Assembly: GCA_023954035.1 (NCBI GenBank)
Contig: JAMLIT010000001.1
Coordinates: forward strand, 96,469-160,468
Source of the DNA: Burkholderiaceae bacterium
GTDB taxonomy: Bacteria > Pseudomonadota > Gammaproteobacteria > Burkholderiales > Burkholderiaceae_C
Length of the DNA: 64,000 bases
Direction of reading: 5' to 3'
The notes beneath the pieces are model-generated. The model did no database searches. It worked only from the letters and a program-made list of their open reading frames with translations, and was not told where the DNA came from. This document shows, one piece after another, positions 7,561 through 58,101 of the stretch. A program made the position numbers and the translations under genes. Position 1 is the stretch's first letter, and each line of letters opens with the position of its first letter.

Positions 7561-7564
7561 TTTC

Positions 7565-12936: not shown

Positions 12937-12970
12937 GCCTGCGCGGCAACCCACCCCGCTCTGCTGCGCC

Positions 12971-13417: not shown

Positions 13418-13430
13418 GGGATTTCCCCGC

Positions 13431-40973: not shown

Positions 40974-41161
40974 GGCAACGACATAGTGCAGTTTGAAATG
41001 AAGGGGCGCAAGATAGCACGAGGCGCAGCAGAGTTGGCGCCTGCAGACGCTGCACCAGCTCCGCTGCACAAACTGCAGTATCTAGCTATGCTCATATTTC
41101 AACGCATCGCACTGTTTGAGCTATCGATATGTCGCCCTTCTCCCCATCCCCACCCCCAGCC

Positions 41162-42148
41162 ATGAGCGATTCGCAGTTCAGCCGACGCGCGTGGCTGAGC
41201 CTGGCGGCAGCCTCTGTCGCTTCCTTGGTTGCGGGCTGCGGCAGCGGCAGCGGCACCACAGAAAGGTTCCAGGCCACATTCCTGCAACCCTGGCAGAGCT
41301 ATGAAACGCTCCCCGTCGCGGAGTGGCGGCGGCGGCTCAAGCTCACGCGCGATCTGGGCTGCAACGAAATCATCCTGCAATGGAGTGCCCTGTATGGCGG
41401 CAGCTACCCCTGGACCATGCCGGAAGGCCTGATTCAACTTCTGTTCGAAGAGGGTCGCAGCCTCGGCATTGGCATTCGGGTGGGCCTTCCCTACGACGAA
41501 GGCTGGTGGAAGGCGCTGAGTGGCAAGGGAACGCGGCGCCTGTCGGAGTTTCTGGGCAGTGCGCAGGCCGTTTGCCTGGAAACCCTGAACAACAGCCGCT
41601 GGCCGGACCAGGCGGGCTTTCGCGGCTGGTATCTCCCCTACGAGCTGGACCAATACAACTGGGCCACCACCGAGCGAAGGGATTTGTTGATTCCCTGGTT
41701 AAGCGCGCTGGCCGATGCCTCTGCCAGGCGCACCGCGCAGCCCTTGGCCCTCTCCACCTTCTACAGTCGCCTTGCGACGACTGGCACATTGGCGGGTCTG
41801 TGGAGCGACATTCTCGATGCCGCACAGCTGCGCCCCATGCTGCAGGATGGCGTGGGCGTGGCTGGCCTTGGCAACTACGCCGGCCTGGAACCTTTGCGGG
41901 GGCTGCTGCGCGAACGCAAGGTTCCTTTTGACCTTATCGTCGAGCTGTTTGAGCAGCTGCCGTCCCTGCCCAATAGCAACGATGCCTTCCGCGCCAAGCC
42001 GGCCTCGGGCGAGCGCATCAGTGCGCAAATGGATGTTGCGCGCAGCTACGGGGCAGACCGCATCGTGGCGTTTGCGATCGATCCCTGGTTGCTCAGCAGC
42101 ACAGACAACGAAATGACCTTTCCGTATTCCTGGGGCACCCAAGTCTAG
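41162..42148 (+). CDS. DUF4434 lipoprotein, possible TIM-barrel glycoside hydrolase
   Basis: About 328 residues from the ATG at 41162; an in-frame ATG at 41129 is possible and neither has a good ribosome site. The start MSDSQFSRRAWLSLAAASVA carries a twin-arginine pair and leads to a lipobox (LVAGC), so it is probably an exported lipoprotein. The rest (TFLQPWQSYETLPVAEW, LGCNEIILQWSALYG, GWYLPYELDQYNW) fits DUF4434, a family with a glycosidase-like barrel in which the Glu of a YLPYELD-type motif would be catalytic. I infer, without proof, a polysaccharide-trimming role like those of hydrolases in other exopolysaccharide loci. It heads the plus-strand gene set that converges on the Nfr/Alg-like operon. 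Confidence 0.75.
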   Translation: MSDSQFSRRAWLSLAAASVASLVAGCGSGSGTTERFQATFLQPWQSYETLPVAEWRRRLKLTRDLGCNEIILQWSALYGGSYPWTMPEGLIQLLFEEGRSLGIGIRVGLPYDEGWWKALSGKGTRRLSEFLGSAQAVCLETLNNSRWPDQAGFRGWYLPYELDQYNWATTERRDLLIPWLSALADASARRTAQPLALSTFYSRLATTGTLAGLWSDILDAAQLRPMLQDGVGVAGLGNYAGLEPLRGLLRERKVPFDLIVELFEQLPSLPNSNDAFRAKPASGERISAQMDVARSYGADRIVAFAIDPWLLSSTDNEMTFPYSWGTQV

Positions 42149-42244: not shown

Positions 42245-43414
42245 ATGAAGTCTGTCAGCGCCCTGTCTGAAGCCCAAGTCGGAGAATCTGCAGCCGCCTG
42301 CGTCGCCGCAGTCGCCGCCGAACACGCCGACGCAGTGGACCAGGCCGGCCTGCTGCCGGTCCACGCTCTCGAAGCCTTGCGCGCCGAGCGTCTGCTCGGC
42401 CTCTTGGTTCCTCATCGCTTCGGCGGGCCCGGATTCTCGCTGCGTACGGTGACCAACATCTGTCGGCGCCTGGCCGAGGGCTGTGCCTCGACGGGGTTGA
42501 TTTTTGCGATGCACCAATCGCAGGCTGCGGTTGCCATCGATCATGCAGGCGAGAGCGAATGGCACCAGCAGCTGCTGCTGCGTATGGCTCGCGAGCAAAG
42601 CCTGATCGCCTCTGCCACCACGGAAGGTGCTACCGGCGGCTCCATCCGCACCAGCGCCTGCTTTATCGATCTGCAGAGCGACGCTCTGCACTTGAACAAG
42701 AGCGGCTCGGTAATTTCCTACGCGCACGCGGCGGACATTTTTCTGGTGTCGGCGCGCTGCTCCGAAGATGCAGCGGCCTCGGACCAGCAGTTGGTGGCCG
42801 TGCTGCGCGAGCAGCTCACCCTGGAGCCCTGTGGCCGCTGGAATCCCCTGGGCATGCGCGGGGCCTGTACGGATCGCTTCAACCTCATGGCGAAGTGCTC
42901 GGCGCAGCAGATCTTTCCCGGCCGCTTTGCCGATGTGATGTCCCTCACCATGCTGCCCAGTTCACACATTCTGCTGGGCTCTGTGTGGCTGGGCATTGCG
43001 GCCGCAGCACTAGGGCGGGCACAGGCCTTCCTACGCAAGCGCAACCGCGCGGGCGCCCCGCTCAACCCGATTGCCAACCTGCGGCTGGCCGAAGGCGAGG
43101 CCATGGTGCACCAGATGCGCGCGCTGATTGCGGCCAACCTGTCGCTGTATGAAGCGGACGACTCCCAGACGTCCGCCACCGACCGCATGGTGAGCTACAA
43201 CACGCTCAAGGTCAGCGCCTCGGCGCTGGTGGTTCGCATCACCGAGATCGCCTTGCGCATTTGTGGCATTCAGGGCTACATGGAGGAAGGCGAGTTCTAC
43301 TTGAGTCGCCATATCCGCGACGCCCACTCTGCCATGGTCATGGTCAACGACGACCGCATTCTCGGCAGCCTCTCCAGCGTGGTACTCGGCATGCCGATCA
43401 CACGCGACGTGTAA
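42245..43414 (+). CDS. Acyl-CoA dehydrogenase-like flavoprotein with atypical active site
   Basis: A 389-residue member of the acyl-CoA dehydrogenase superfamily: N-terminal helices (residues 1-110, LLVPHRFGGPGFSLRTVTNI), a beta domain (ASATTEGATGG, NPLGMRGACTDRF) and C-terminal helices. In classical enzymes the catalytic Glu follows the RDA motif as YEG; by eye alignment here (RDAHSAMVMVNDDRILG) that position is Val, and the segment resembles acyl-CoA-dehydrogenase-like monooxygenases of the DszC type. It may oxidise an acyl or aminoacyl group held on the carrier protein encoded 20 bp downstream, as PltE-type enzymes do with prolyl carriers. There are no beta-oxidation genes near. The start at 42245 has a weak ribosome site; TTG at 42221 is an alternative. 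Confidence 0.82.
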   Translation: MKSVSALSEAQVGESAAACVAAVAAEHADAVDQAGLLPVHALEALRAERLLGLLVPHRFGGPGFSLRTVTNICRRLAEGCASTGLIFAMHQSQAAVAIDHAGESEWHQQLLLRMAREQSLIASATTEGATGGSIRTSACFIDLQSDALHLNKSGSVISYAHAADIFLVSARCSEDAAASDQQLVAVLREQLTLEPCGRWNPLGMRGACTDRFNLMAKCSAQQIFPGRFADVMSLTMLPSSHILLGSVWLGIAAAALGRAQAFLRKRNRAGAPLNPIANLRLAEGEAMVHQMRALIAANLSLYEADDSQTSATDRMVSYNTLKVSASALVVRITEIALRICGIQGYMEEGEFYLSRHIRDAHSAMVMVNDDRILGSLSSVVLGMPITRDV

Positions 43415-43434
43415 TTTCTCTCTCTTTCTACCCC

Positions 43435-43668
43435 ATGACCTTATCCGAAGTTGAAGACCAGTTGGCCGACATGATCCAGGCCGTCATTCTCAAGAAAGTC
43501 AGCCCCGACACCTTGCTTCTAGAGTCGGGGCTGCTCGATTCCGTAGCAGCGGTTGACTTGATGCTGGCCATCGAGAGCCGCTTCGGTTGCACTGTCCCGT
43601 TGACGGAAGTCGAAGAGCATTTGTATTCCTTGCGCACGCTGTCCACCTACGTCGCGGCAAACTGCTGA
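43435..43668 (+). CDS. Acyl/aminoacyl carrier protein (DltC-like)
   Basis: A 77-residue acidic carrier protein. The phosphopantetheine attachment Ser is residue 36 in LLESGLLDSVAAVDLMLAIE. The short length and the LLDS motif are typical of stand-alone carriers such as DltC rather than fatty-acid AcpP (which has DSLD). It lies 20 bp after the flavoprotein gene and 16 bp before the adenylating enzyme gene, so it is most likely loaded by that enzyme and may present the group to the flavoprotein or to the membrane acyltransferase. A phosphopantetheinyl transferase must act from elsewhere in the genome. Confidence 0.9.
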   Translation: MTLSEVEDQLADMIQAVILKKVSPDTLLLESGLLDSVAAVDLMLAIESRFGCTVPLTEVEEHLYSLRTLSTYVAANC

Positions 43669-43684
43669 CCGGACGAGCACGGCC

Positions 43685-45124
43685 ATGCATTTCGACTTCG
43701 ACGCCGGCCGTTTCGCGAACCGTGAAAACGGCCAAGAGGCCTGGGCGGTGATCGCTCACGACGCCAGCCTCAGCTGGCAGCAGTTGGAGACGCAGGCCCG
43801 CGCCTGGTGCGAGCAAGCCCGGGCCCTCGGACTGCGCGCCGATACCCCTGTCGTCATCCGGGGCCACAAGGAGGCGGCCTTCATGGTGGCGCTCACGGGA
43901 GCCCTGATGCTGCGTGCGCCCTTTGTTCCCGTCGATGCTGTGTACCCACAAAGCCGACTGCAAAGCATCATCGACACCCTCGATGCCAATCTGCTTTACG
44001 AAACTGCCACGGGCACTTTCAAGGTGCTCAGAGAAGGCCCACCACCGGTGCTGGCGGAGGCTGGCCTGTGCTACATCATGTTCACCTCCGGAACGACAGG
44101 CCAGCCAAAAGGTGTCCAAATTGGACGCGAAAGTGCGCAGGGCCTGATCGACTGGATGCGGCAGGACTTTGATTTGGGGCCGCATCCGGTTTTTCTGAAC
44201 CATACGGTATTCAGCTTCGATGTCTCGCTCTACGACGTGTTTGGCACGCTGTCCCTTGGCGGCAGCATCGTGATGCTGGACCGCGAGACGGCCGCCGCGC
44301 CGCTGCAAGTGGCCACCCTTATTGAGCGCCACGCGGTCACCACCTGGGTATCGACACCGTCGTTTGCGCAGCAGCAATTGCTCAATCCCAGCTTCTCACA
44401 AGCAGGTTTGCCATCGCTGCGAACTTTTTTGTTTTGTGGCGAACCCTTGCCCGTACCCCTGGCGCGCACGCTGCGAAAGCGCTTCCCCGATCTGCCCATT
44501 CTGAACACCTACGGTCCGACCGAGGCGACCGTAGCGACGACCTTGCTGCGTGTCGAAGATGCCCATCTGGCGGACGATGCCGTCATGCCGATAGGACGCG
44601 CCAAGCGGGACAGCGTGGTGTATTGCGATGCAGGTGAGTTGTGCATTGCGGGGCCGCACGTGATGCGCGGCTACATCAACCGGCCGGACCTGAATGCCAG
44701 CCGCATGTTTGAACGCGATGGCCAGCGGGGTTTTCGCACCGGCGACCTGGGCACGGAGACCGCCGACGGCATGCTTTACTGCCACGGACGCATCGACGAT
44801 CAGATCAAGCTCAATGGCTACCGTCTGGAGCTGCTGGAAGTCGATGCCGCTCTGGCCACGCTGCCGGGCGCCCGTGCGGCCGCCACCGTGGCGCTGCGCC
44901 GCGCCAATGGCGCTGTGGCACGCTTGGTGGCTTTTGTAGAAACCGGCCGTACTGAGGCCGCTCTGCCGGACGAACTGTCCGACTGGAAATCGCTGCTTGC
45001 CAGCAAGCTACCGCACTACATGCTGCCCACTGAGCTGCTGGCCTGCGAGCGCATGCCGGTGTCGGTAAACTTCAAAATAGACCGCGCCAAACTGGCCGAA
45101 ATCTACCAGTCGCTCAACGCGTGA
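43685..45124 (+). CDS. DltA-like amino acid adenylation enzyme
   Basis: A 479-residue stand-alone adenylation domain that would activate an amino acid with ATP and load it on the adjacent carrier protein. Core motifs: YIMFTSGTTGQPKG (A3), FSFDVSLYDVFG (A4), NTYGPTEATVATT (A5), FRTGDLG (A7), GRIDDQIKLNGYRLELLEV (A8) and NFKIDR (A10, Asn-Phe-Lys instead of the common Asn-Gly-Lys). The segment FLFCGEPLP places a Cys at residue 251, the position at which DltA uses Cys to favour D-alanine. The overall look is DltA-like, so D-Ala or another small amino acid is the best guess; proline-type activation (PltF) is the main alternative. Its 3' end overlaps the convergent AlgF-like gene by 11 bp. Confidence 0.88.
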   Translation: MHFDFDAGRFANRENGQEAWAVIAHDASLSWQQLETQARAWCEQARALGLRADTPVVIRGHKEAAFMVALTGALMLRAPFVPVDAVYPQSRLQSIIDTLDANLLYETATGTFKVLREGPPPVLAEAGLCYIMFTSGTTGQPKGVQIGRESAQGLIDWMRQDFDLGPHPVFLNHTVFSFDVSLYDVFGTLSLGGSIVMLDRETAAAPLQVATLIERHAVTTWVSTPSFAQQQLLNPSFSQAGLPSLRTFLFCGEPLPVPLARTLRKRFPDLPILNTYGPTEATVATTLLRVEDAHLADDAVMPIGRAKRDSVVYCDAGELCIAGPHVMRGYINRPDLNASRMFERDGQRGFRTGDLGTETADGMLYCHGRIDDQIKLNGYRLELLEVDAALATLPGARAAATVALRRANGAVARLVAFVETGRTEAALPDELSDWKSLLASKLPHYMLPTELLACERMPVSVNFKIDRAKLAEIYQSLNA

Positions 45125-45815
45125 AGGGATCGGTCCGGCTGGGCTGTATCACCAACTGCGGCGCAGTGGCCGATCCGGTCAAAAACAGGCTTAGATGATC
45201 GCCGGGCTCCAACTGCGGGAGCGGCTGGGGCGCGGTTTTGGCATCGCCGCATTGCCCCACCAACGCGGCGCGAACCGGGTTCACCGAGCGCGCCGCCGAG
45301 GCGCTGGAGGCGACCGCCGAAAATACCGGAGTGCCAGCCGGCGACAGCAACAGGTTCGCTGCGCCGCAGCCCGCTGCGAGGTTGTAGAACCGAAGCTCGG
45401 CCTTGAGTGCATCTTCGGTATCGGCCGTATCGTCGATGACTGTGAATGCATAGGCTGAAGCATCGCGGCGCAGCGCCAAGGTGCTGAAGCTGTCCGGGCG
45501 TACCTCCATACGAGCGACCTCCTTGCCGTCAATCAGCACAGCGAAACGCTGCCCGCCGGGAACGATGGCGTAGCTGCCAGACGGCGCCTTGCCACCGAGT
45601 CGCTGCACCGGGCCTTTGGCCACGCGGACGGCAAGCACTGTGGGCAACGGGTTGACCACCCGCACGTAGGAAGCGCCTGCGGGGGGTCGGGGTGCGTACA
45701 ACTGCGAAAGTGCGCCTTCTTGCGCCGAAGCGCACGAAACCACCACCAACGAAAGCACAGCCACTGCGCCTTGCAGGATGCAGGAGAGTGAGGAGGGAAA
45801 GAGTGAAAGGAACAT
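45114..45815 (-). CDS. AlgF-like periplasmic exopolysaccharide O-acylation protein
   Basis: A 233-residue exported protein. A signal sequence (SLSCILQGAVAVLSLVVVSC, ending ASAQ) precedes LYAPRPPAGASYVRVVNP, which matches the start of mature AlgF; ARSVNPVRAALV and LEPGDHLSLFLTG match later AlgF blocks. AlgF is a periplasmic partner in alginate O-acetylation, also found as a homologue in acetylated-cellulose (wss) loci. The ATG at 45815 shares one base with the stop of the MBOAT gene (TGATG), so translation is coupled. It is the last gene of the minus-strand operon. A lipobox is possible at VVSC but the following residues are not typical. Confidence 0.82.
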   Translation of the reverse strand: MFLSLFPSSLSCILQGAVAVLSLVVVSCASAQEGALSQLYAPRPPAGASYVRVVNPLPTVLAVRVAKGPVQRLGGKAPSGSYAIVPGGQRFAVLIDGKEVARMEVRPDSFSTLALRRDASAYAFTVIDDTADTEDALKAELRFYNLAAGCGAANLLLSPAGTPVFSAVASSASAARSVNPVRAALVGQCGDAKTAPQPLPQLEPGDHLSLFLTGSATAPQLVIQPSRTDPFTR

Positions 45816-47398
45816 CAGAACTGGAAATAGAGAAACCGGGATTCCCGGTGAAGATGCATCAGGCAGATCCACAGCACGGCCAGAAATGCAATAAGCCATG
45901 CCCAGTTGGGACGCCAACGCAGCCAGCGCGCGTTCGCCTCCTGAACGCGGGCCAACGCCGGCGAAAAATACCCAAGAATCTGGTGCGAATTGGGCGCCAG
46001 CCAGACAACCGCCAGCAAGAATGCCAGCTGAATGGCAAGCAGGTGGCGACCCACTAGCAGACGCCAATCTTGCAGTCCCCCCAATTCGAGAAGCTCTTGT
46101 TGCGGCCACTGCATGGTTTCCACGCCCTGCAATCCCGCCATGGCACGCAGTAGCGCCATCGCTTCGTGAACATTCGACGCGCGAAAGAAGGCGAAAGCGG
46201 CCATCACGGCGACGAAAGTGAGCAACACACAAGCACGGCTCCAACACCATTGCAACCAGGCGTGGCGTGGCGCAATGCGTTTGGCAAACGCCACCCGCCA
46301 ACCATGGTTCACGCACAGGTAAACACCGTGCAACAAGCCATAAATGGCGAACTGCAGCCCGGCTCCGTGCCACACGCCCGCCAGCCCCATGGTGTAGAGA
46401 GTAGGCAGGGCAATCATCAGCGCAAAACCACTCGGCGTGCGGCTGCCCGCTGAGCCCACGGGCAATCCACGGCGATTGCGCCAGCGCGAAACCTGCATGG
46501 CGAGTGGATAGTAAAGATAGGCCGTGAGATAGCGCGTGAGTGTCATATGCCAACGCGCCCAGAAATCAATAATGCAGCTGGCCTTGTACGGCGAGTTGAA
46601 GTTCAGCGGAAAGCGGATTCCGAACATCTTGGCCAGGCCGAGCGCCATGTCGGAATAGCCCGAAAAGTCAAAGTACAGTTGCATGGCATAGGCCAGACTG
46701 GTGGACCAGGCGCCCCAGAACTGCAGCTCGGCGGGCGCTACGAACCCGGCATCGGCATACGGGGCGATGCCGTCGGCAAGAAGCACCTTCTTGGCCAGGC
46801 CAATCACAAACAGCGTGCCACCGATGGACAGGTTGTCGGCCCGAAACCGGTAGGTTTCTGGCTCGGCAAACTGCGGCATCATCTCTTTGTGGTGCAGCAC
46901 TGGGCCAGCAATCAAGTGCGGGAAAAACGTGACGAACAGCGTGTGCTTGAGCAGGCTGGGCGATTGCACCAGGCCGGCGCGACAATCGAGCAGATAGCCG
47001 ATCTGGGTAAACGTAAAAAATGAAATTCCCAGTGGCAAGAGGATGCTGTCGGGCCGATCGGAAGACAGACCCCAAGCCTGAAGCGCGCCCAGCAAAGTGA
47101 CGAAATACTTGTAGTAGAAAAGCAGTGCCAGGTTGCATGCCACGCCGAACGCCACCGTCCAGCCCTGGCGGCGAGGCATATCCGATTGCTGAAGAACATA
47201 CCGGCTAACGGCATGGTTGAACAGGATGGACGCTGCCAGCAGCACCACAAAGCGCGGATTCCACCATCCATAAAAAACGAACGAGGCCACGCACAACCAC
47301 AGGGCGGCCCAGTGCAGGCGAACGCGTCCAAGCAAGTAATAGCCGCCCAGCGCCACGGGCAGAAACAAAAACAAGAAGAGGTAGGAGTTGAAGAGCAA
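45815..47398 (-). CDS. MBOAT-family membrane O-acyltransferase (AlgI-like)
   Basis: A 527-residue polytopic protein with about 11 hydrophobic helices. The family start MLFNSYLFLFLFLPVALGGYY, DFWARWHMTLTRYL and the catalytic His in LAGVWHGAG (about residue 320) are present. AlgI carries acetyl groups across the inner membrane for transfer to alginate; DltB of the same superfamily moves D-alanine from its carrier protein. Both substrates are conceivable here because the convergent genes encode a carrier and its loading enzyme. Family alignment puts the start at a TTG at 47398, 7 bases after the upstream stop. Confidence 0.9.
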   Translation of the reverse strand: MLFNSYLFLFLFLPVALGGYYLLGRVRLHWAALWLCVASFVFYGWWNPRFVVLLAASILFNHAVSRYVLQQSDMPRRQGWTVAFGVACNLALLFYYKYFVTLLGALQAWGLSSDRPDSILLPLGISFFTFTQIGYLLDCRAGLVQSPSLLKHTLFVTFFPHLIAGPVLHHKEMMPQFAEPETYRFRADNLSIGGTLFVIGLAKKVLLADGIAPYADAGFVAPAELQFWGAWSTSLAYAMQLYFDFSGYSDMALGLAKMFGIRFPLNFNSPYKASCIIDFWARWHMTLTRYLTAYLYYPLAMQVSRWRNRRGLPVGSAGSRTPSGFALMIALPTLYTMGLAGVWHGAGLQFAIYGLLHGVYLCVNHGWRVAFAKRIAPRHAWLQWCWSRACVLLTFVAVMAAFAFFRASNVHEAMALLRAMAGLQGVETMQWPQQELLELGGLQDWRLLVGRHLLAIQLAFLLAVVWLAPNSHQILGYFSPALARVQEANARWLRWRPNWAWLIAFLAVLWICLMHLHRESRFLYFQF

Positions 47399-47405: not shown

Positions 47406-48515
47406 TCAGCGGATGGCGTCGAGCGCGAGCTGCTCGGCCCGTGTCAGCGGCAGCGACAAAGACAACTCGGAAAATTGCCATACCACCAGCTTGAGGCTGG
47501 GCGGCATTGCGTCCAGTCGGCCGAGTGCGGCCAGCATGGCAGCTGAAAAAGATCCGCCGTCCTGACTTAGATTCCAGACTTCGCGGCCAAGGCGTCGGCC
47601 CAGGCGCTCGGCAAACTCGCTGCGCAAGCCATTGGAGTCGCCAAGCAACAGCACCTGGGCGCTGGGGCCTTCGTCCAGCAAGCCCCCGCTGCGCACTGGC
47701 TCGATGTGTTCGGGCACAAACTGCTCAATTTCTGGACGCCAGCCTCTGGGCACATGCTCGAGGCCAGCGAGCACGATCAAGTCGCCCATGCGCGGCTCGG
47801 CGTTCGGCGCCCGGGACGATGTGAACTGCTGCGGCCCCTTGCCGCCCAGGATGGCAAGAGCTTCCCTTGCGGCGCTACCTGCCGCCGCTTCAGCGCCCTC
47901 TTGCGTCATGTGTACGTCGGTTCGATAGAACGCCTGTGGTACAGCATCCAGCGCAGGCCGAAGGTCGACAAAAGACAGACCTGCCCCGGCTAGCACGCCC
48001 TGCCATGCGTCCAATCGTCCAGGGAGCGGTGCAGCGACGCGCAAACCACAAAGCTGTGCGGCCTCGACACGGGACTTGTCGGGTACGGTGACAACCAACA
48101 GGCGAATACCAGCCTTTTGCCATTGTCGAGCCCAATGGCGCATCAGCTTTAAGCGCTCTTCAAATGCTCCGCTGAAGCCCGGCGCGGGGCGCAAACCGTC
48201 GCGATAGAAGAGCCAGCCAGGACACCCCTCTCGCACCTGCTCACCCAAGTCGCCCAGTAAACGGTAGCGCAGCGCCGAAGATGCCCGAGCTGTCCAGGTC
48301 CGGCCAGGCAGTGTGCCCAGCGCCTGGTTGACCTCTTTCCCCGCCTGGCCATCTACCCAGGTAGAGGGTTTCCATTCGCTGGGTGCAAAGCCCAGTTGAC
48401 TCAGGCGCAGTACGCCCCAGGCACAACCTGCCGCCAAGGCCAATGCCACGACGATGGCGATACGTCGGTGCCCGGACGGATCTGATTCGCCTGGCGGCGA
48501 CAGCGGCGCTGGCAT
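47406..48515 (-). CDS. AlgJ/AlgX-like SGNH acyltransferase, membrane-anchored
   Basis: A 369-residue protein with one N-terminal signal anchor (about residues 18-38) and a periplasmic SGNH-hydrolase-like domain. The catalytic residues appear as TDVHMTQEG (Asp-x-His, about 205) and VLLLGDSNGLR (GDS Ser, about 295), the arrangement of AlgJ and AlgX, which transfer acetyl groups to polymer in the periplasm. The ATG at 48515 begins five bases after the stop of the preceding gene; a longer start would overlap that gene by 70 bases. With the next protein it forms a two-member SGNH set, as AlgJ and AlgX do in alginate production. Confidence 0.82.
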   Translation of the reverse strand: MPAPLSPPGESDPSGHRRIAIVVALALAAGCAWGVLRLSQLGFAPSEWKPSTWVDGQAGKEVNQALGTLPGRTWTARASSALRYRLLGDLGEQVREGCPGWLFYRDGLRPAPGFSGAFEERLKLMRHWARQWQKAGIRLLVVTVPDKSRVEAAQLCGLRVAAPLPGRLDAWQGVLAGAGLSFVDLRPALDAVPQAFYRTDVHMTQEGAEAAAGSAAREALAILGGKGPQQFTSSRAPNAEPRMGDLIVLAGLEHVPRGWRPEIEQFVPEHIEPVRSGGLLDEGPSAQVLLLGDSNGLRSEFAERLGRRLGREVWNLSQDGGSFSAAMLAALGRLDAMPPSLKLVVWQFSELSLSLPLTRAEQLALDAIR

Positions 48516-48520
48516 CGCCT

Positions 48521-49522
48521 TCACGCCGGAAGAGCTGCGGCAAGCCTCCGGCTCCAATCCTGCGCGGAGATCACGGAAGCAGCATCCCACAGCCCTTCCG
48601 CATCGGGGCCGAGATGGAAATTGGGCTCAAACAATTGCCAGACCAGCACTTGGGGTGGCCGCTGGCGAAACGCAGCCGATTCCAGGTATTCAATCAGCAC
48701 GCTCCAGAAACCCACATCGCCCGGCTTCCAGTTCACCGATACCGGCCGGTCAATGAGATTCGACAATTTTTGCGGAAAACCGAAATACGGCTGCACCATG
48801 CTGTTGCCCGTGACGTGAACGGGGGCGATGGCCGCATCGAGCAAGCCGGCTGTCTGCGTTTGGCGGCGCACGGTAAAAATCTCACGCCCAGCAGCACGCC
48901 GCTGCTCTGGCGAGAGAAAGCGCTCTGCCAGGTCGCCATAGCGCCGTTCCTTGGAAATCGCACCGAGCGCGAGCCCGGTCCCGGCGGCGCCGGCCAACGT
49001 GGGAACCAACTGGTGAATGAGATCCGCCGTGGCTCGGGCCGTGGCGTCAGCCGCTGCCTGGGTCCAGTGTTGATCGGTGCGGTAGTACACCTGTTCGCCT
49101 TTGGCCTGTAGCGCGCGGTAGATCTGCTCTACATCGAAGCCCGGCACACCGACCGCAGCCAATCGATCCCGAATGCCTGCATAGCGGCCAAGCATTTCGG
49201 GGGTCAGGGCATCTTCAGCCGGGAGCTTGTCTGCGTAAAACAGCTTCTTGCTGGGAAGCACCGGCGCCACCAGTGCAATACCACGCGCAGCAAGCCGTTT
49301 GTGCACCTCTGCAATGCGCGCCACCGTGGCGTCAATGGCGCGCCAATCGGGCTCGTCCGTGGTCCCCCATGCAGGGAAGAGGTAGTTGTCTTTGCCGATG
49401 ATGGCCAAAATATCAGGCTGCGCGATGGCCACCTGCGGTAGCGACAAACCAAGAGTGAATCCGAGTGACAAGCCAAGCAGGCTTCGTCGAGAGAGCGCAG
49501 AAGGGGAAAGATGGTTTTTCAT
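48521..49522 (-). CDS. AlgX/AlgJ-like SGNH-family periplasmic protein
   Basis: A 333-residue exported protein. The N-terminus has a twin-Arg pair (SALSRRSLLGLSLGF) and a hydrophobic run ending QVAIAQ, so Tat or Sec export is likely. The domain begins DILAIIGKDNYLFPAWG, as AlgX-like proteins do with their 'GKDGWLF' segment; the Asp-x-His pair is in YYRTDQHWTQAA and the nucleophile motif is VTGNSMVQPYFGF, with GNS in place of GDS. It may transfer acyl groups to the polymer or bind it. It lies 38 bp after nfrA and 5 bp before the second SGNH gene. Confidence 0.8.
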   Translation of the reverse strand: MKNHLSPSALSRRSLLGLSLGFTLGLSLPQVAIAQPDILAIIGKDNYLFPAWGTTDEPDWRAIDATVARIAEVHKRLAARGIALVAPVLPSKKLFYADKLPAEDALTPEMLGRYAGIRDRLAAVGVPGFDVEQIYRALQAKGEQVYYRTDQHWTQAAADATARATADLIHQLVPTLAGAAGTGLALGAISKERRYGDLAERFLSPEQRRAAGREIFTVRRQTQTAGLLDAAIAPVHVTGNSMVQPYFGFPQKLSNLIDRPVSVNWKPGDVGFWSVLIEYLESAAFRQRPPQVLVWQLFEPNFHLGPDAEGLWDAASVISAQDWSRRLAAALPA

Positions 49523-49560
49523 CGATGGAACGAATGTTTGAGCGAGCTTGCAAGCGCGGC

Positions 49561-52500
49561 TCAGTAGGCGAATGTCAAGCTCAGGAAAACGCCCTTGGCA
49601 CGGTCTTCGACACCTCCCAGGCGCGTGCGGTATTGCAGACTTCCATCCACGTAAGAGCTTTGCGCACGGTATTTGCCTCCATCGAGCCAATAGCGCACAT
49701 TGACCCCCACCCCTGCTCCCACAGACCAATCGCCTTTGTTGCCGACCAGATCGAAATTGGAGTAACCCGCAACCGGCGTGCCGGTGGCCCGATTGCGGTC
49801 CGAGTACCAGTCTGCGGCAAGCGACACATGAGGGAAGATCACCAATCGATCGCTGTAGTCTGTGAGATAGCTGCGGCCCACCCGCACTTCACTGGCAGCA
49901 AAGGCCTGGCCGCGCTTGAGCTTGCCTGAGGACCGCCCCAGCACTTGGCCTGTGCTGTCGCGCAGTGTGTAGGCTGTCGGAGCGTCCATCAAGGTGTAGC
50001 CGGCCTGCACGTAGCCTTCCATCGTGAACCAGCTGGTGGTATCGAGCCTGAGCCCTGTACCTTCGTAAAAGCCATAGAGCACATAGGCCTGCCAGGCTCC
50101 GGCAGAGGCGTCGGTACGGTAATCAACCGCAGCCGCTTGCTGGTTCAAGAGGCAGCGTACGGCACTCGAATCTGCATTCAAAGAGCCTCTTCGCGCGGCA
50201 TTGCCCAGAAAAAACTGCCGCTCCAGGCCAAACGTAAGGTTCTTTTCGGTCCACGGGGTGTAGCGCACGCCAAACGCGCCAGTCGTCGTGGGGAAACCAG
50301 AGACGGCCTGCGTACGGGTTTCGGCGACGTTGATAGTCCCCCCGCAAGGGTCAGGAACGGTTTGTGCGCCCGTGACATCGACACCGCTGTACAACGTGTT
50401 GGACAGTCGGCCATAGATGTCGAAGGTGCTGCTGCTGGAGTTGAGAAACGCCGACGGACGCCAGTACGCTTCAACAGTGCTGAAAACCGCATTGCCGGGC
50501 AGCGACACAGGCTGTGCCACCAAGGCATTGGTCGGTGCGCGAGCGCCGCGGTAGGCCACCGACGCCGTCACGCCCCACTCGCGCGAAAAGTTGGCAATAG
50601 CGCTTCGGGTATCGAACCGCTGCTGCGCATCCAGCGCGAACTTTCCCTCATCGGCATCGTCAATGGCCTGGCGCAACATGGCAGCCGCCGCGATGCGATG
50701 GCCGCTGGCAGCCATCGCATACGCCTCGTCCAAAACGTTGGTGGGTGGGGCATTGCCCGTGCTTCGAGCGGCCACGAAATCTTGCAAAGCCAGCTCGGGT
50801 TCGCCGTTCGCCAGGCGCAAGTAACCGCGTTGGCGCAGCAAATTGGCATCTTCTGGCTGAGTAAGCAGCGCTTGGTCCAGTCGCACCAGGGCTTCCTTCT
50901 GCTCTTGCGGTGTGCCTGCGGCCAGTGCAGTGGTGAGCAATATCTGGTTCGATTCGGTTTTCGGATCTTCTGCGATTGCCCTGCGGGCGAGCGCAATGGC
51001 TTGTTCATAGCGCTTCTGACCATAGGCCGCGTAAGCGCGCGCTGCCGGGTTGTCCGTGCCTGGGGCATCCCACGGCTGCATTTCGCAAACCGTGCCATAG
51101 GGCGTGTCGTGACACAACTGCAAGGGCGCGTATGCAGTGGCAGGCAAGACGTCCTGGGTAGTCCAGAAATTGCCCAGCGCGCTTGCGGCCTTGCGACGGG
51201 AAGCAGCCTGTTCGTCATCGAGCGCAAGCGGCTCAAGCAGCTTTTTGACACGCGCAGGCTGCCGGTCGGCCAGTGCAAGGTCAGCGCCAATCAAACGCAC
51301 GTTGCGTCGCAGCGATTCATCGATCCAGTCTTGGGCCAGCACCGCCTCAATGTCCTGCTGCGCAGCTTCGCCATGCCCCAACAACTGCCGCAAATAGGCC
51401 CGCTGAATGCGGATCGTGGTGTTTTCTTCATCGGATTGCAGAGCTTCTCCTGCGGCGCGCTCCGCACCCACGATGTCCTGGGTGGCTTGCAAAGCGCTAA
51501 TCAGCAGCAAACGGTGGCTGACCACATCCGGCGCCCGACGGACGGCCTCACGCGCTTCGGGAAGCGCCTCCTGCGGCCGGTTCTTCGCCATAGCCACGTA
51601 GGCCTTCTCCGCGTGCTGCACGGCGATGGCCTGGCTTGCCAGCCGCATCAACGCGCCGATGGCGTCAGCGTTTGGCGCGCCCAGTGCAATCGCCTGGCGG
51701 CCCGCCTCAATCATTTCCTCGTAGCGCTGGAGATCTTCCAAAGCGTTGAGCCAAAGCAAAGACCAGGGCCCCTGGCTGGGATCTGTACGTACGGCGATCT
51801 CCGCGTTCGACGCGGCGTCCGCAAACTTCCCATCGGCGAGTTGCTCATAGGCGAGTGTGGCAATAGGGAAGGCCTTGCGGTACTCGGCGGTGGTGGGCAC
51901 GCCTGCCACCCCTGGGGGCACTGGTCGCAAGTTCAGCAAGGCTGCTTGCAGTTCGGGGCTGCTGTGACCGCTTGCAATGGCCTCCTCTGCTGCGCGCTCG
52001 GCCTCTTCCAGCCGATTGAGCTTCTGCAATGCGTACACACGCAGTTGGTACAGGCGAACCACGTCGGGGCGGAGTTTCAATGCGGCATCGGCGCGACGCA
52101 GTGCCGTCTCGTAGTCGCCGCGGGCGTAGGCTTTATAGCCTTGATCAGACAAACGCCAGGCCAGTCCGCGCAGGCGTCCTCCCAGCCGCGAGCGAGCTGC
52201 CGGCTTGGATGGTGTCTCTTCAACCGCCGGTGGAGCAACGGACCGGATGCTGTCCGCTTGCGGAGGGCGCGGTGCCGGCACCACCAGTTGGGCCGGACTG
52301 TGCGGCCTGGGCGCCTGCCACATGGGCAAAGCGGGCATTTGCAAACGCACGTAGCGACGCAATGCACGCTGAAACTCGTTATCCACCACGGTGTCTGCGG
52401 GTCCCCTGCCCCACGGCGCAGGGTCTCTGCGTTCAATCGCCTGCAAGGCCGTCTGCCAGGCGGATGGCGGTCGCGATGGGACGGGGGCGGGTGACCCTGG

Positions 52501-52836
52501 CGCCTCGGCCAGCGTGTTGGGCTCCAGCGGCCCCGAGGGTCGCCATGCCAGCTCGGAAGACAGGCGCAAGCGCGCAACCAATAGATCGCTCGATCCGCCC
52601 GGCCGCTGCGCCGAGACGAGTTCGCTGTCCGACGATGCCTGCGAGGCGACAAGGGTGACAGAGCCCGGAGGCGTCAGCCGCAAGGACATCATGAGTCGCA
52701 GCGGGCTCTCCTCGCCTTGCCACTGGCTATGGCGAGTCGGCGTAGCGGCGCCCACTCCTGCGGCAAGAAGGGGAGCAGCAGGCCATGCCATAGCCAGAGC
52801 CACCGCCAACAAGGTTCGATTTCGCAAAGGTTTCAT
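49561..52836 (-). CDS. nfrA: NfrA-like outer-membrane TPR/beta-barrel protein (phage N4 receptor family)
   Basis: A 1091-residue exported protein: signal peptide (residues 1-26), a Pro/Ala/Arg-rich stretch to about 210, TPR-like helical repeats from about 215 to 740 (YKAYARGDYETALRRADAAL, AYGQKRYEQAIALARRAI), then a beta-barrel-like C-terminal region ending VFLSLTFAY with the terminal aromatic. This is the architecture of E. coli NfrA, the outer-membrane protein needed for phage N4 adsorption and for export of the NfrB-made glycan; the same design (periplasmic TPR plus barrel) is used by BcsC, AlgK/AlgE and PelB. Its start overlaps the nfrB stop as ATGA, so the two are translationally coupled. 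Confidence 0.88.
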   Translation of the reverse strand: MKPLRNRTLLAVALAMAWPAAPLLAAGVGAATPTRHSQWQGEESPLRLMMSLRLTPPGSVTLVASQASSDSELVSAQRPGGSSDLLVARLRLSSELAWRPSGPLEPNTLAEAPGSPAPVPSRPPSAWQTALQAIERRDPAPWGRGPADTVVDNEFQRALRRYVRLQMPALPMWQAPRPHSPAQLVVPAPRPPQADSIRSVAPPAVEETPSKPAARSRLGGRLRGLAWRLSDQGYKAYARGDYETALRRADAALKLRPDVVRLYQLRVYALQKLNRLEEAERAAEEAIASGHSSPELQAALLNLRPVPPGVAGVPTTAEYRKAFPIATLAYEQLADGKFADAASNAEIAVRTDPSQGPWSLLWLNALEDLQRYEEMIEAGRQAIALGAPNADAIGALMRLASQAIAVQHAEKAYVAMAKNRPQEALPEAREAVRRAPDVVSHRLLLISALQATQDIVGAERAAGEALQSDEENTTIRIQRAYLRQLLGHGEAAQQDIEAVLAQDWIDESLRRNVRLIGADLALADRQPARVKKLLEPLALDDEQAASRRKAASALGNFWTTQDVLPATAYAPLQLCHDTPYGTVCEMQPWDAPGTDNPAARAYAAYGQKRYEQAIALARRAIAEDPKTESNQILLTTALAAGTPQEQKEALVRLDQALLTQPEDANLLRQRGYLRLANGEPELALQDFVAARSTGNAPPTNVLDEAYAMAASGHRIAAAAMLRQAIDDADEGKFALDAQQRFDTRSAIANFSREWGVTASVAYRGARAPTNALVAQPVSLPGNAVFSTVEAYWRPSAFLNSSSSTFDIYGRLSNTLYSGVDVTGAQTVPDPCGGTINVAETRTQAVSGFPTTTGAFGVRYTPWTEKNLTFGLERQFFLGNAARRGSLNADSSAVRCLLNQQAAAVDYRTDASAGAWQAYVLYGFYEGTGLRLDTTSWFTMEGYVQAGYTLMDAPTAYTLRDSTGQVLGRSSGKLKRGQAFAASEVRVGRSYLTDYSDRLVIFPHVSLAADWYSDRNRATGTPVAGYSNFDLVGNKGDWSVGAGVGVNVRYWLDGGKYRAQSSYVDGSLQYRTRLGGVEDRAKGVFLSLTFAY

Positions 52837-54533
52837 ACGGCAACTACGTCCTGCATGGCGGGCGGCGGTGTAGGTGCGGGCGCCGCATCTGCCTGCTGGA
52901 AGGAAATCGCTTCCTCCAGGGTGTGCTGGTCCAACCAGCCTTGTTCCAACAAAATACGGCCCAGCGGGCGGCGCGAATCCCTTTGCATAACGAGCGCCTG
53001 CTCAAGGTGCCCGGCATCAATAGCACGCCAGGAGAGCAGTACCTCGCCCAGTCGCTGACGATGCGACTCCAACTGATCGGCAGATGGGAAATCATGTGCG
53101 GTTTTGTCCCATAGCAGCCGCGTGCCGAAAATCTTGTGAGATAGAAAAAGCCGCCAAGCGCGTGCCGCAGCCATGGCATTGATGAAATTCCCGATGACCA
53201 TTCGCGGGATCGAGAGCAAGCCATGCTCCCAGCCATACATCTTGCCCACGAAATAGGCCCGCTGCACCACACGCAACAGCAAGGCCACAGCGTTGAGCCC
53301 CATGACAGTCATGAACCAGCCGTTGGTATGAAACAAGGAGGGGTAATACACCGTCCACCAGCCGAGCTGGTCGGCGGCGTAGAACAGCAAAAAATTGAGC
53401 ATCAGAACGTAGCCGAGGATCGCCACGAACGCAGTGATCAAGCCTTTGCGATCCCGAAACAACAAGTATTTTGTGGCCAGCGACCCCGCCCAACCCACTT
53501 GCTGCCAGCCCTGCAGGCCAATGCCAATGGTCCAGCGTGCTTTCTGGCGGTAGGCGGCGCGAAATGTATCTGGAAAAAATTCACGCACTCCCAAAGGCAT
53601 CTGAATCGAACCAATTTTCTCGCGTCCAAGGCCAAACCAGGCCGTGCGACGGGTGAGGTAGTCCACGTCGAATTTGCCAAAAATCTGCTTCATTCCCAAC
53701 CGACTAAGCCGCGTACCAATGTCGTAGTCCTCGGTCAGACTCTCTACATTGAAAGGCTCATTGTTGGTCGTCGCTGCGAGTATCTGCATCGCACTGTGAG
53801 AGAAGCAGGTGCCAACCCCCGCCGATGGAACCATGTTGGAAAGGCTCTCGCGCACGACCAAATCCTTGCTGTGCCATTCCGCGAACTCATCCATGTAGGT
53901 GCCCGCCACCAGTTCAAACCAGCTGCGCTCAAGTGAAGTCACCGGCAACTGGATGAAATCCATCCGCGGCAGCAGGTAGTTGTAGTACTTCAGCTCCAGT
54001 GGGTGGAGCACGTCTTCACTGTCGTGGAGCACGAATCCAGCAAAGTTTTGAGACTGCTTGCGTTCCTGCTGAAATGCGGCTTGTACGATCCAGTTGAGAC
54101 AATCAGCCTTGCAAGTGGGCCCATCGTGCGGTACTTCCACGCGCACAAGCTGTCGGTAGCGCCTGCGCATCCGCTCAACCTCCTCGATCGTCCGGTGATC
54201 GTTGCGATAGGTACCGACGAAAATCGTGTAATTCCGATACTCCAACGTGGACACCATGTTGCTGAGCATGGGAGCAATCACGTCGAATTCCAGCCACGCC
54301 GGAACCATGATGGCCATGGGCTGCTCGGGATGCTCGCGCAGCTGCGCGGCTGTCAGGCGCTTGTATTGGCGTCGCACTACCAACGAGCGGTAGCTCTCGC
54401 GAACCCAGTACCAAGCATCGATAAACAGATCGTCGATGCTCGACAGCAGGATGATCACGCCGACCATCGCAGTCAATATCTCAAGACCGCGGTAATAGTC
54501 GGCAAATAGGTAAGGCCAGTACAGCGTGAACAT
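52833..54533 (-). CDS. nfrB: NfrB-like glycosyltransferase with C-terminal MshEN (c-di-GMP-binding type) domain
   Basis: A 566-residue inner-membrane synthase. A membrane segment (about 8-35) precedes a GT2 domain with VHD-type Asp in LHDSEDVLHPLE, TEDYDIG and the QxxRW motif QKARWTIG, then several membrane helices (about 345-450). The C-terminal 75 residues (RLGEVLLSWRAIDAGHLEQA, then PLGRILLEQGWLDQHTLEEA) are a double MshEN motif, which in other proteins binds c-di-GMP. In E. coli, NfrB with this domain makes a secreted ManNAc-type glycan in response to c-di-GMP. The first motif here has Arg where the consensus has Gly. It is shorter than E. coli NfrB (about 745 residues). Confidence 0.9.
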   Translation of the reverse strand: MFTLYWPYLFADYYRGLEILTAMVGVIILLSSIDDLFIDAWYWVRESYRSLVVRRQYKRLTAAQLREHPEQPMAIMVPAWLEFDVIAPMLSNMVSTLEYRNYTIFVGTYRNDHRTIEEVERMRRRYRQLVRVEVPHDGPTCKADCLNWIVQAAFQQERKQSQNFAGFVLHDSEDVLHPLELKYYNYLLPRMDFIQLPVTSLERSWFELVAGTYMDEFAEWHSKDLVVRESLSNMVPSAGVGTCFSHSAMQILAATTNNEPFNVESLTEDYDIGTRLSRLGMKQIFGKFDVDYLTRRTAWFGLGREKIGSIQMPLGVREFFPDTFRAAYRQKARWTIGIGLQGWQQVGWAGSLATKYLLFRDRKGLITAFVAILGYVLMLNFLLFYAADQLGWWTVYYPSLFHTNGWFMTVMGLNAVALLLRVVQRAYFVGKMYGWEHGLLSIPRMVIGNFINAMAAARAWRLFLSHKIFGTRLLWDKTAHDFPSADQLESHRQRLGEVLLSWRAIDAGHLEQALVMQRDSRRPLGRILLEQGWLDQHTLEEAISFQQADAAPAPTPPPAMQDVVAV

Positions 54534-54562: not shown

Positions 54563-56767
54563 TCACGAAGGCTTTCTGCGATTGCGCCGGATGCGATAAG
54601 CCCAGACAACCAGCAGCAGCAACATGAGGAGCGCCGCGCTCACCAGAGGCACGCCCCAGGAGAAATAACGCCTCCATTCGTAGAAGGCACTTTCGCCGGC
54701 ACGTGGCGGCTGGCTGGCTGAAGGATTGGTGCTGTCTACCCAGCTAACCGGGCCTTCGGCACCGATCAAGGCGATGTCTCCACGGTTGAGCACGAAGGGC
54801 TTGTCTTGCGCCGCGGTTTGCGCGCCCAGGGGCTGCCACAGCAGGCCCGGCTGAGCGTGCGCGCTGGTAACTTCGACTGCGCTCAGGTGCGCCAGGCCAT
54901 CGACATCAATCCAGGGAGCCTTTTTCCCGTTGATGCGCAGCTGCGCATCCTTGATGACAACTTTGGACGTGGCGCCATCTACCGGCACCTGCAGGGCGAG
55001 GAAGGGACGACTCGGTGTGAATGCCTGACCTTGCTCGGCCACCACGAATTCGGCGCGTATGGGCGTAACACCCGCCGCAACGGCCATGCGAACCACGCGC
55101 ATCAAACTGGCGGGTGCGTCCGCCAGATACGCTTCTGGAACAATAAGCTGCGGCGTGCCGGACATCAGGGGCAGCAAGCCGACAAAGGTGCCATCGGGCT
55201 CTGAATCACCACCACGTACATAGCTGGTGGGCAGCACATTCACCGGGAACGCCTGCGGCGTTTCATTGCAGTCGTTGGAGTAGGGCTGGCGCTGGAAAGA
55301 CACCCGTACCACATTTCGAAGTCCAAGCGCATAGCCAGGAATACGGGCATCAAGACGCTCAGGACGCCCATCCGCTTGGAGGCGCTTGGCCGACAGCAAG
55401 ACGTTGTTCCAGAACACGGAAGCTACCGGACGGGTGGACGAGGCACCGGGCGCTGCGGCCACATCCACTACCAGATCAGACGGCATTCGGCCATTGACGG
55501 CCACGGCGCCGAGCGGGATGGTGGCCGTCCAGTCGCCGCGTGCCAGGACGTCGAAACTCGCATCGCTGCCGCCGAGGTTGGTGAGGCGGATGGCCGAGCG
55601 GTCGAGTACGTCGGGTGTATTGGCTTCCGCTACCGTCACTTCCCGGGTGGTCATGGCGCTGCGCCAGACGTCGGCGAAAACGCCTGCAGCCTTGGCACCC
55701 GCATCCTCCGACACCACGATGACCGGACGGGCGCCCAGCGTTGCCAGACGAATCGAATGCGACGGCAGGGCTCCCGTGGCCACCGCCGTTTGCAGGCTGC
55801 GCCAGCTCGCGAAGGAACGCGCCGCGTCGGCGTCGCCGCCCAGCTGAGCGCCCAACGCGTCCAGAGCTGCCGATATTTCCTGTTGCAAGGCAGTGTCCAC
55901 GACCGCGATGTCTCCGGTGGCAAGCGAAGACCCCAGGACTACCAGAGCCCCTACCTCGGCGGCATCCTTCAGTGCGTGTTTGGCATTGCCTTGCGCAAGG
56001 CCAGAAAAGGCCGGCAGGCTCGCCAGCCCAGCAGGCACCTGCCATCCGGTTGTGTCAATGACGTCGCCAGGAGCGGGAAAGGACTTCACGACGACGCGGC
56101 GATTGGCCTGCTCCAAGGCGACGCCAAGACGCCAGGCAGTGTCGTAGGTGGCCTTGCTGACTTTGCGCGACGCCACCATCAGCGTCGGATGCGCCGGCAA
56201 AGTGAGCCAGGCGTCCGAGAGACTGGTCAGAGCGGAGCTGCTGAAACGGTAATTGAATCGGGTATCTGCAGAGACCGACAGCACATTGCCGGTGGATCGC
56301 TCCACCTCGCAAATGCGTTGGCCGACATTGTTCTGCCAGTTCACACGAAAACGCAGGAAGCCGTTGGTGCGCTGGTTGGTATCTACCTTCAGCAACTGGC
56401 TGGCGTCGCCTTCTGAAACCTCAATGCGACGCGAATGCACGGGCCTGCCATTGATGAACAACACCATGGTGGTGCGCCCCTCTTCGGCCTTGTAATAGCG
56501 CGCGCGAAAGTCGACGGTGGCGTCGGCCAACTTCAGCTGCTGAGGCACTGGTAGATAGAACTCCTGGCGGCTGTCAAAGCCGCTCAACAACACGTCATCG
56601 CCGAACCCCAGGTCCGAAAGCGAGAAACTGCGGTTGACCCAGGTGTCTCCCTGCAAGCGCTGCAAGGCGTCGCCCGCAGGACTGGCCAGCGCCATGATCG
56701 GGACGGCCAAACTGATGAGCGCTACCAAGCGGGTGAGACGTGGCGATCGGGGCGGGCAAGATGGCAT
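54563..56767 (-). CDS. BcsB-like periplasmic polysaccharide-synthase partner
   Basis: A 734-residue protein with an N-terminal signal peptide (RLTRLVALISLAVPIMALAS), a long beta-rich periplasmic part with repeating carbohydrate-binding-like and flavodoxin-like units, and a C-terminal anchor (YFSWGVPLVSAALLMLLLLV) followed by a basic tail. This is the design of BcsB, which sits next to the cellulose synthase BcsA, completes its membrane channel and guides the chain across the periplasm. ATG at 56767 has a GGAG site. It lies 29 bp before nfrB, so it most likely partners NfrB. No bcsA, bcsZ or bcsC is in the window; pairing of a BcsB-like protein with an NfrB-type synthase is unexpected. Confidence 0.85.
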   Translation of the reverse strand: MPSCPPRSPRLTRLVALISLAVPIMALASPAGDALQRLQGDTWVNRSFSLSDLGFGDDVLLSGFDSRQEFYLPVPQQLKLADATVDFRARYYKAEEGRTTMVLFINGRPVHSRRIEVSEGDASQLLKVDTNQRTNGFLRFRVNWQNNVGQRICEVERSTGNVLSVSADTRFNYRFSSSALTSLSDAWLTLPAHPTLMVASRKVSKATYDTAWRLGVALEQANRRVVVKSFPAPGDVIDTTGWQVPAGLASLPAFSGLAQGNAKHALKDAAEVGALVVLGSSLATGDIAVVDTALQQEISAALDALGAQLGGDADAARSFASWRSLQTAVATGALPSHSIRLATLGARPVIVVSEDAGAKAAGVFADVWRSAMTTREVTVAEANTPDVLDRSAIRLTNLGGSDASFDVLARGDWTATIPLGAVAVNGRMPSDLVVDVAAAPGASSTRPVASVFWNNVLLSAKRLQADGRPERLDARIPGYALGLRNVVRVSFQRQPYSNDCNETPQAFPVNVLPTSYVRGGDSEPDGTFVGLLPLMSGTPQLIVPEAYLADAPASLMRVVRMAVAAGVTPIRAEFVVAEQGQAFTPSRPFLALQVPVDGATSKVVIKDAQLRINGKKAPWIDVDGLAHLSAVEVTSAHAQPGLLWQPLGAQTAAQDKPFVLNRGDIALIGAEGPVSWVDSTNPSASQPPRAGESAFYEWRRYFSWGVPLVSAALLMLLLLVVWAYRIRRNRRKPS

Positions 56768-56820
56768 GGAGACACTCCGGAAAAAGATGCGGGGGCTAGA
56801 GAACTGAATCACGACGCGGT

Positions 56821-57954: not shown

Positions 57955-58101
57955 TCGAGGAGTCAGTTGGTGCGCCCAACCAGTGCCGCTCCTACACAAG
58001 GAACCCAACCCGGAAAAACGCAATCAAGAAACGGTAAATGCGTCTTCCTACGCATCTACTGGGGCGGGAACGATCTGCGCCGTCTGACCCTCGATGCACC
58101 A

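Follow-up and report, generated by a model that had tools for sequence, protein, structure and literature searches.

We analyzed a gene cluster in a 64,000-nucleotide stretch of DNA from a Burkholderiaceae bacterium (assembly GCA_023954035.1, contig JAMLIT010000001.1, positions 96,469 to 160,468 of the forward strand), hereafter called the window and numbered from its first letter. In this cluster, genes of the Dlt loading type lie against genes of the alginate acetylation (Alg) type and of an Nfr-type exopolysaccharide system, and we propose that together they are likely to decorate the polymer with an aminoacyl group. A sequence-only reading of this DNA had noted a stand-alone adenylation enzyme of 479 amino acids (aa) and a 77-aa carrier protein converging on an operon with an MBOAT acyltransferase and SGNH proteins, which the open reading frames (ORFs) and their family matches confirm. 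It began at position 42245, the start of the gene for a flavoenzyme of the acyl-CoA dehydrogenase (ACAD) fold, here named ACAD1, which its reasoning left unmentioned. The plus strand carries the genes for a DUF4434 protein, ACAD1, the carrier and the adenylation enzyme, and the convergent minus-strand operon runs from the AlgF gene through the GalE-like gene:

41129..42148, plus strand: DUF4434 lipoprotein-like protein (PF14488, E = 7e-46)
42245..43414, plus strand: ACAD1, acyl-CoA-dehydrogenase-fold flavoenzyme (PF02771, E = 2e-13; PF00441, E = 1e-10)
43435..43668, plus strand: DltC-like carrier protein, 77 aa (PP-binding, E = 4e-7, on a longer ORF)
43685..45124, plus strand: DltA-like stand-alone adenylation enzyme, 479 aa (AMP-binding, E = 7e-58)
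45114..45815, minus strand: AlgF-family protein (PF11182, E = 4e-11)
45815..47398, minus strand: AlgI-type MBOAT, 527 aa (PF03062, E = 2e-19)
47406..48590, minus strand: ALGX-family SGNH protein 1 (PF16822, E = 7e-59; longest ORF, true start probably further in)
48521..49729, minus strand: ALGX-family SGNH protein 2 (PF16822, E = 1.5e-56; longest ORF, true start probably near 49564)
49561..52836, minus strand: NfrA-like tetratricopeptide-repeat/outer-membrane export protein (PF13283 NfrA_C, E = 6e-21)
52833..54533, minus strand: NfrB-like family-2 glycosyltransferase (GT2), 566 aa (PF13632, E = 3e-35)
54563..56914, minus strand: BcsB-like protein (PF03170, E = 2e-7; longest ORF)
56821..58023, minus strand: WecB-like UDP-GlcNAc 2-epimerase (PF02350, E = 3e-116)
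58195..59211, minus strand: GalE-like sugar nucleotide epimerase/dehydratase (PF16363, E = 3e-53; PF01370, E = 8e-52)
59351..62464, plus strand: PelA-like protein, divergent from the GalE-like gene (GH114; a polysaccharide deacetylase match just under the gathering score)

The AlgF and adenylation genes stand tail to tail, and their 3′ ends share 11 bases. A minus-strand ORF at 45114-46553, also of 479 aa, was rejected as a longest-ORF artefact: its AlgF match is confined to residues 272-440, and the real gene is 45114-45815.

The joining of these genes recurs in other genomes. We found 13 clusters with the MBOAT clade of the window (two of them near-identical and one split over two contigs), and every one holds the carrier and adenylation genes, so that the proposal of the sequence-only reading, that AlgI-like and AlgX-like proteins replace DltB and DltD beside a DltA/DltC-like pair, holds in 13/13. 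All 13 also encode a flavoenzyme, which is ACAD1 in eight clusters and a second protein, ACAD2, in five. The co-occurrence of carrier and MBOAT in other genomes, which that reading had suggested as a check, is borne out in the same way: the carrier/adenylation pair accompanies the MBOAT clade in 13/13 clusters and is present in 0/12 Nfr clusters without MBOAT. These 12 lack not only the pair but also any MBOAT, AlgX or AlgF match in the stretches fetched (tblastn, E ≤ 0.01, with queries from both layouts described below; two of the stretches, L108 and L116, are only about 11 kb long because of contig ends).

The clusters come in two layouts. The first is that of the window. In a sample of 26 genomes of the same genus, the window's own included and several incomplete, the adenylation enzyme was found at 77-100% identity in five genomes and the MBOAT at 78-100% in the same five, with identical gene order; in G006, another member of the genus, the MBOAT is distant (44%) and the adenylation enzyme gave no match at E ≤ 1e-30. 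Of the named relatives found, a Giesbergeria metagenome-assembled genome is the nearest, with an adenylation enzyme that is 89% identical, and among four loci from a scan of genome contigs L028 is the sole close relative. Two other genera also hold the first layout (G206, locus L072; G590, locus L131), and because it is kept there at ~69-86% identity of adenylation enzyme, carrier, flavoenzyme and MBOAT, the arrangement is more than chance. In G561, of the genus of G206, it spreads over two contigs: the genes from MBOAT to AlgF lie on L130, which ends after AlgF, and the adenylation enzyme, carrier and ACAD1 lie at the contig edge of L139. The second layout was found in five genomes (L074, L076, L132, L133, L134) that database labels assign to two families and three genera. 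Here the genes run in one direction in the order GT2, NfrA, AlgX, AlgX, MBOAT, carrier, adenylation enzyme, AlgF and ACAD2, with the DUF4434 gene convergent, so that here the MBOAT and AlgF genes flank the carrier/adenylation pair within the operon. In three of the five (L074, L133, L134), the adenylation and AlgF genes overlap by 4 bases, with starts chosen by script.

Broader samples gave the same association. Among 399 genomes of the order, the synthase was detected at E ≤ 1e-100 in 16, four of which have MBOAT, AlgX and AlgF genes, and all four have the carrier and adenylation enzyme; the chance of the latter falling randomly on just those four of 16 is 1/1820, if relatedness is ignored. 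The adenylation enzyme itself had a match at E ≤ 1e-80 in nine genomes of a sample of the order drawn in the same way (up to four first-look candidates were scored per genome), none of them one of the 12 MBOAT-less Nfr genomes; four of the nine are clusters of the window's kind, and one of these genomes, G173, also holds a dlt-type copy. The MBOAT was found at E ≤ 1e-120 in 10 of 280 genomes of the family, nine being clusters of the window's kind and one (G450) not, and in six of 398 genomes of the phylum, where three are known clusters of this kind and three are not. At ten loci with an AlgI-like MBOAT that are not clusters of this kind (L047-L052, L135-L138; 41-49% identity; the L049 and L051 stretches short on one side), the stretch holds neither a carrier nor a DltA-like adenylation enzyme, except for a weak match to the end of the latter in L135 (31%); ordinary acyl-CoA dehydrogenase matches were seen in L050 (30% to ACAD2) and, marginally, in L048. 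We thus regard gene content, gene order, the single MBOAT clade and the strict co-occurrence as established at the level of sequence: this is a conserved gene system in which an Alg-type transferase is combined with a Dlt-type loader and a flavoenzyme.

The best matches of the carrier in the PDB are DltC structures (E = 7e-10), the aminoacyl carrier protein 4h2s being a weak match (E = 0.0014), and its LLDS motif holds the presumed phosphopantetheine Ser36 in an alignment of four. In a tree of 13 rows, the adenylation enzymes of the two layouts group with their counterparts from the dlt-type loci L073 and L075 (support 99/99). Pocket codes were read from columns set by alignment to GrsA positions. 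The code is DVYSLCTVAK in five of six first-layout enzymes, including that of the window, and DVYSVCTVAK in the sixth; it is DLYSLCTVAK in five of six enzymes from dlt-type loci and L077-L079, and DLYSLCSVAK in the other. Since the window pocket is one position from the Gram-negative dlt code, the enzyme is predicted probably to take an alanine-sized amino acid, possibly D-Ala. In the second layout, the code is DFFSVGSCSK in 5/5 (for L132 from its longer in-frame piece), and these enzymes may use another substrate than that of the window.

Adenylation and carrier genes that regularly occur without Alg/Nfr genes, or an MBOAT that groups firmly with acetyl-only AlgI alongside a polymer carrying only acetate, were named by the sequence-only reading as results that would speak against it, and here the outcome is divided: relatives of the pair do stand apart from Alg/Nfr genes at six loci, three dlt-type with a DltB-like MBOAT and three with no MBOAT detected in the fetched stretch, and the MBOAT does group with AlgI, but as a separate clade (see below). 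The dlt-type operons, in Gram-negative Burkholderiales, are L073 (9236-13434), L075 and L080, with adenylation enzyme, DltB-like MBOAT and carrier; the SGNH partner in L073 is DltD by Pfam (PF04914). The other three loci, L077 (9341-11014), L078 and L079, have a DltA/DltC-like pair with the code DLYSLCTVAK in another family, in genomes of 2.2-2.4 Mb, and no MBOAT match within the fetched stretch; in L077, an overlapping 482-aa ORF has a weak alpha/beta-hydrolase match under the cut-off.

On the transferase side, a single clade with support of 100/100 unites the MBOATs of the two layouts. It sides with AlgI-like rows and not with the three DltB rows; the tree has flagged long branches and does not recover the AlgI-like rows as a single clade. 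The phylogeny against AlgI and DltB that had been suggested thus answers in two parts, as the protein groups with AlgI, not DltB, and stands as a separate clade. The window MBOAT ends in FLYFQF (with Tyr524), a fused acyl-shuttle hexapeptide of the FXYXXF motif, which is preceded by Arg in 12/12 cluster MBOATs read (all but that of G012); the similar C-terminal motif of the comparison AlgI-like rows is preceded by Glu in 10/10, and the three DltB rows have no such end. Two further examples of residues that are fixed in the 12 cluster MBOATs and absent from the 10 comparison rows are Tyr290, where all 10 have Phe, and Phe263, where all 10 have Leu. Such differences would be anticipated for separate clades and prove nothing about function. 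Both SGNH proteins of the window match only ALGX PF16822 at E ≤ 0.01, not the DltD family, and show Asp-x-His and Ser motifs by eye. A 2025 article (PMC12148441) shows that the Tyr of the PatA motif is acetylated and that the peptide is able to pass the group to its SGNH partner; it also states that MBOAT/SGNH pathways except Dlt lack a carrier protein, evidently because acyl-CoA is the donor.

The flavoenzymes ACAD1 and ACAD2 belong to two different subfamilies, and a tblastn search with ACAD1 did not recover ACAD2 at E ≤ 1e-3. ACAD2 closely resembles mitochondrial long-chain acyl-CoA dehydrogenase (8w0t, E = 1e-105). The deposited variant 8w0z has Gln in place of a Glu that we take to be the catalytic base; ACAD2 retains this Glu. 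The predicted model of ACAD1 (predicted local distance difference test score 87) matches the ACAD/DszC fold; among the 50 best matches of the fold search, DszC/TdsC monooxygenases, a desulfinase, nitrososynthases and dehydrogenases ranked together, at template modelling scores of about 0.73-0.82, and the predicted fold is about as close to monooxygenases as to dehydrogenases.

The company kept by ACAD1 elsewhere points to aminoacyl-carrier chemistry. Class-II tRNA-synthetase-like amino acid:carrier-protein ligases charge carrier proteins with Gly or Ala. In the 399-genome sample, 10 genomes gave an ACAD1 match at E ≤ 1e-60 (up to four candidates scored per genome), two of which are clusters of the window's type (the window and G206). 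The other eight relatives (L081-L088, ~37-41% identity) lie beside a carrier and such a ligase in 8/8, with DUF1839 and a GH2-like protein in 7/8 and a sugar transferase within the stretch in 4/8 (Pfam was run for L081 and L085, the L081 ligase scoring under the gathering score; the L081 example lies at 7499-14979). The simplest reading of these neighborhoods would be that ACAD1 acts on an aminoacyl-carrier thioester, and L081-L088 are a possible second route to aminoacyl decoration of polysaccharides. The presence of a flavoenzyme in all 13 clusters suggests that what is exported differs from the plain amino acid.

As to the polymer, the NfrB-like GT2, the NfrA-like exporter and the WecB-like and DUF4434 proteins of the Nfr system are all present in the window, and the name NfrB was given because the gene stands with those for NfrA, WecB and DUF4434. 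The DUF4434 gene is present in 12/12 clusters with a readable flank on that side, and its product is probably the counterpart of YbcH, from the E. coli nfrBA-ybcH operon, presumably itself of the DUF4434 family. A BcsB-like gene adjoins the synthase gene, and the PelA-like protein may trim or deacetylate the polymer. Passages of PMC8669472 and PMC8669469 propose that E. coli NfrB, NfrA and WecB make a cyclic di-GMP-dependent glycan based on N-acetylmannosamine (ManNAc), required by phage N4. The second of these (2021) also notes that the nfr locus of Simplicispira suum contains a cluster akin to the alginate acetyltransferase complex, for which it proposes a role in acetylation; its main text contains no word starting with "acyl". 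The Simplicispira suum cluster may be of the same kind as that of the window.

Taken together, these results make it likely that the cluster encodes a hybrid Dlt-Alg module that acylates an Nfr-type exopolysaccharide: an aminoacyl group, borne on the carrier and probably oxidised, would be exported via the AlgI-type MBOAT. In this model, the DltA-like enzyme would adenylate a small amino acid and load it on the carrier, as its family, pocket and adjacency to the carrier gene suggest. The ACAD-fold flavoenzyme would then oxidise the carrier-bound aminoacyl group, a step proposed from its constant presence and from the occurrence of its family beside other enzymes that load amino acids on carriers. 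As DltB/DltX and PatA suggest by analogy, the MBOAT would draw on the loaded carrier instead of acyl-CoA and place the group on its own Tyr524 of FLYFQF, and the two AlgX-type SGNH proteins, with the help of AlgF, would by a similar analogy move it to a hydroxyl of the polymer. The latter would be the product of the NfrB-like synthase, probably from UDP-ManNAc, exported through NfrA. We consider aminoacyl decoration of the polymer the best explanation of the cluster.

Other explanations account for parts of the data. The Alg module might just O-acetylate the polymer from acetyl-CoA while the other three proteins (adenylation enzyme, carrier and flavoenzyme) produce a small molecule unrelated to it or act on a different target: AlgI, AlgX and AlgF are known acetylation families, the nfr cluster of Simplicispira suum is interpreted as an acetylation system in the passages of PMC8669469 cited above, and in the window the adenylation and carrier genes are on the opposite strand. 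However, the pair lies between MBOAT and AlgF and in the same direction in five genomes, its co-occurrence is 13/13 versus 0/12, and no condensation or thioesterase family was found among the 20 window proteins scanned with Pfam, so that we consider such a division of labor rather unlikely. A plain Dlt-like D-alanylation, in which unmodified D-Ala reaches the polymer and the flavoenzyme acts elsewhere (for example, clearing mis-loaded carriers, or on another substrate), would fit the single pocket difference from DLYSLCTVAK and the grouping of the adenylation enzyme with those of dlt operons. It leaves aside a flavoenzyme that is constant over the 13 clusters, from two subfamilies, and was found in none of the three dlt-type operons, as well as a second layout with another pocket, and it appears distinctly improbable. 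Loading of proline, its oxidation to pyrrole-2-carboxylate and transfer of the latter to the polymer is suggested by the make-up of prolyl-carrier dehydrogenase systems, which is adenylation enzyme, carrier and ACAD, and by the prolyl ligase 7thn and the prolyl-ACP dehydrogenase 4irn among the matches of the adenylation enzyme and ACAD2, respectively. We rejected this candidate as very improbable, given that neither pocket is like the proline code and that ACAD1 and ACAD2 score 60 and 207 bits against a prolyl-carrier dehydrogenase model with a cut-off of 650 bits.

Several observations weigh against the export of a carrier-borne, oxidised aminoacyl group. All three Dlt-related proteins of the window score below curated models: 357-359 bits for the adenylation enzyme against DltA models (cut-offs 476 and 560), 41.4 bits for the carrier against TIGR01688 dltC (cut-off 52.35), and 169.6 bits for the MBOAT against the DltB model (cut-off 375). 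The same holds for the adenylation enzyme and DltB of L073, a real dlt-type operon. The window MBOAT could still take acetyl-CoA. At the short-chain Glu position, ACAD1 of the window has Val, and at the helix-G position a His is invariant over 13/13 rows; since the usual catalytic Glu is missing, the reaction may not be a canonical dehydrogenation. The adenylation enzymes of the two layouts are joined with a mere 78/71 support, which, along with their different pockets, establishes neither a single origin nor a single amino acid for both. In addition, the window and G012 clusters are nearly identical, leaving about 12 independent clusters from few genera, and two genes are disrupted by sequencing error or decay: the adenylation gene of L132 is split between two frames (about 7715-9160), and the 5′ part of the flavoenzyme gene of L046 is out of frame (about 5490-5700).

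The Dlt-Alg hybrid for aminoacyl export that we favor might have a wider reach. Tentatively, and at less than even confidence, we suggest that an amino acid, oxidised while on the carrier and exported by the AlgI-type MBOAT, yields an unusual glycan ester (dehydro-, imino/keto- or N-oxidised aminoacyl), and that the window represents a branch of a wider class whose loader can be exchanged: it is DltA-like here, and in other clusters, some of them linked to polysaccharides, a class-II tRNA-synthetase-like ligase takes this place next to a flavoenzyme of the ACAD1 subfamily. Among the open-access papers listed by our literature searches, none describes in its title or the opening of its abstract an AlgI-type system that works with an adenylation enzyme and a carrier. 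If the model is true, the cluster is an exception to the statement of PMC12148441 on pathways outside Dlt; the decorations of Gram-negative secreted glycans would extend from acetyl to carrier-borne, possibly oxidised amino acids; and the charge of the polymer would change, as would biofilm properties and perhaps the adsorption of phages to Nfr-type glycans. It also proposes a role for the flavoenzyme subfamily found beside aminoacyl-carrier ligases.

Two pathways thought to be separate, Dlt and Alg, thus appear to be mixed in some environmental bacteria. With the Dlt system (DltA-DltC-DltB-DltX-DltD, including L073, L075 and L080), the cluster has related adenylation and carrier proteins and the logic of carrier, MBOAT, tyrosine, SGNH protein and polymer in common, but its MBOAT is AlgI-type with a fused shuttle peptide, its SGNH partners are ALGX and not DltD, AlgF and a flavoenzyme are added, and the acceptor would be an Nfr-type exopolysaccharide. 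With alginate O-acetylation by AlgI/AlgJ/AlgF/AlgX and its relatives (WssHIFG, PatAB), it has in common the fused-hexapeptide MBOAT, the AlgX-type SGNH proteins and AlgF, to which it adds a dedicated adenylation enzyme, a carrier and a flavoenzyme. The E. coli NfrBA-YbcH/WecB system likewise has an NfrA-like exporter, a GT2 synthase, a WecB-like epimerase and a DUF4434 protein; unlike it, the window has BcsB-like and GalE-like genes and the whole acylation module, and the cyclic di-GMP (MshEN) region of E. coli NfrB seems to be missing from the 566-aa synthase, for which a general scan gave GT families only (E ≤ 0.001) and no dedicated MshEN search was run. Finally, the L081-L088 clusters differ in their tRNA-synthetase-like loader, and AlgI, AlgX, AlgF and Nfr genes were not found there with window queries, yet they place a flavoenzyme of the ACAD1 subfamily beside a carrier and an aminoacyl loader, as does the window.

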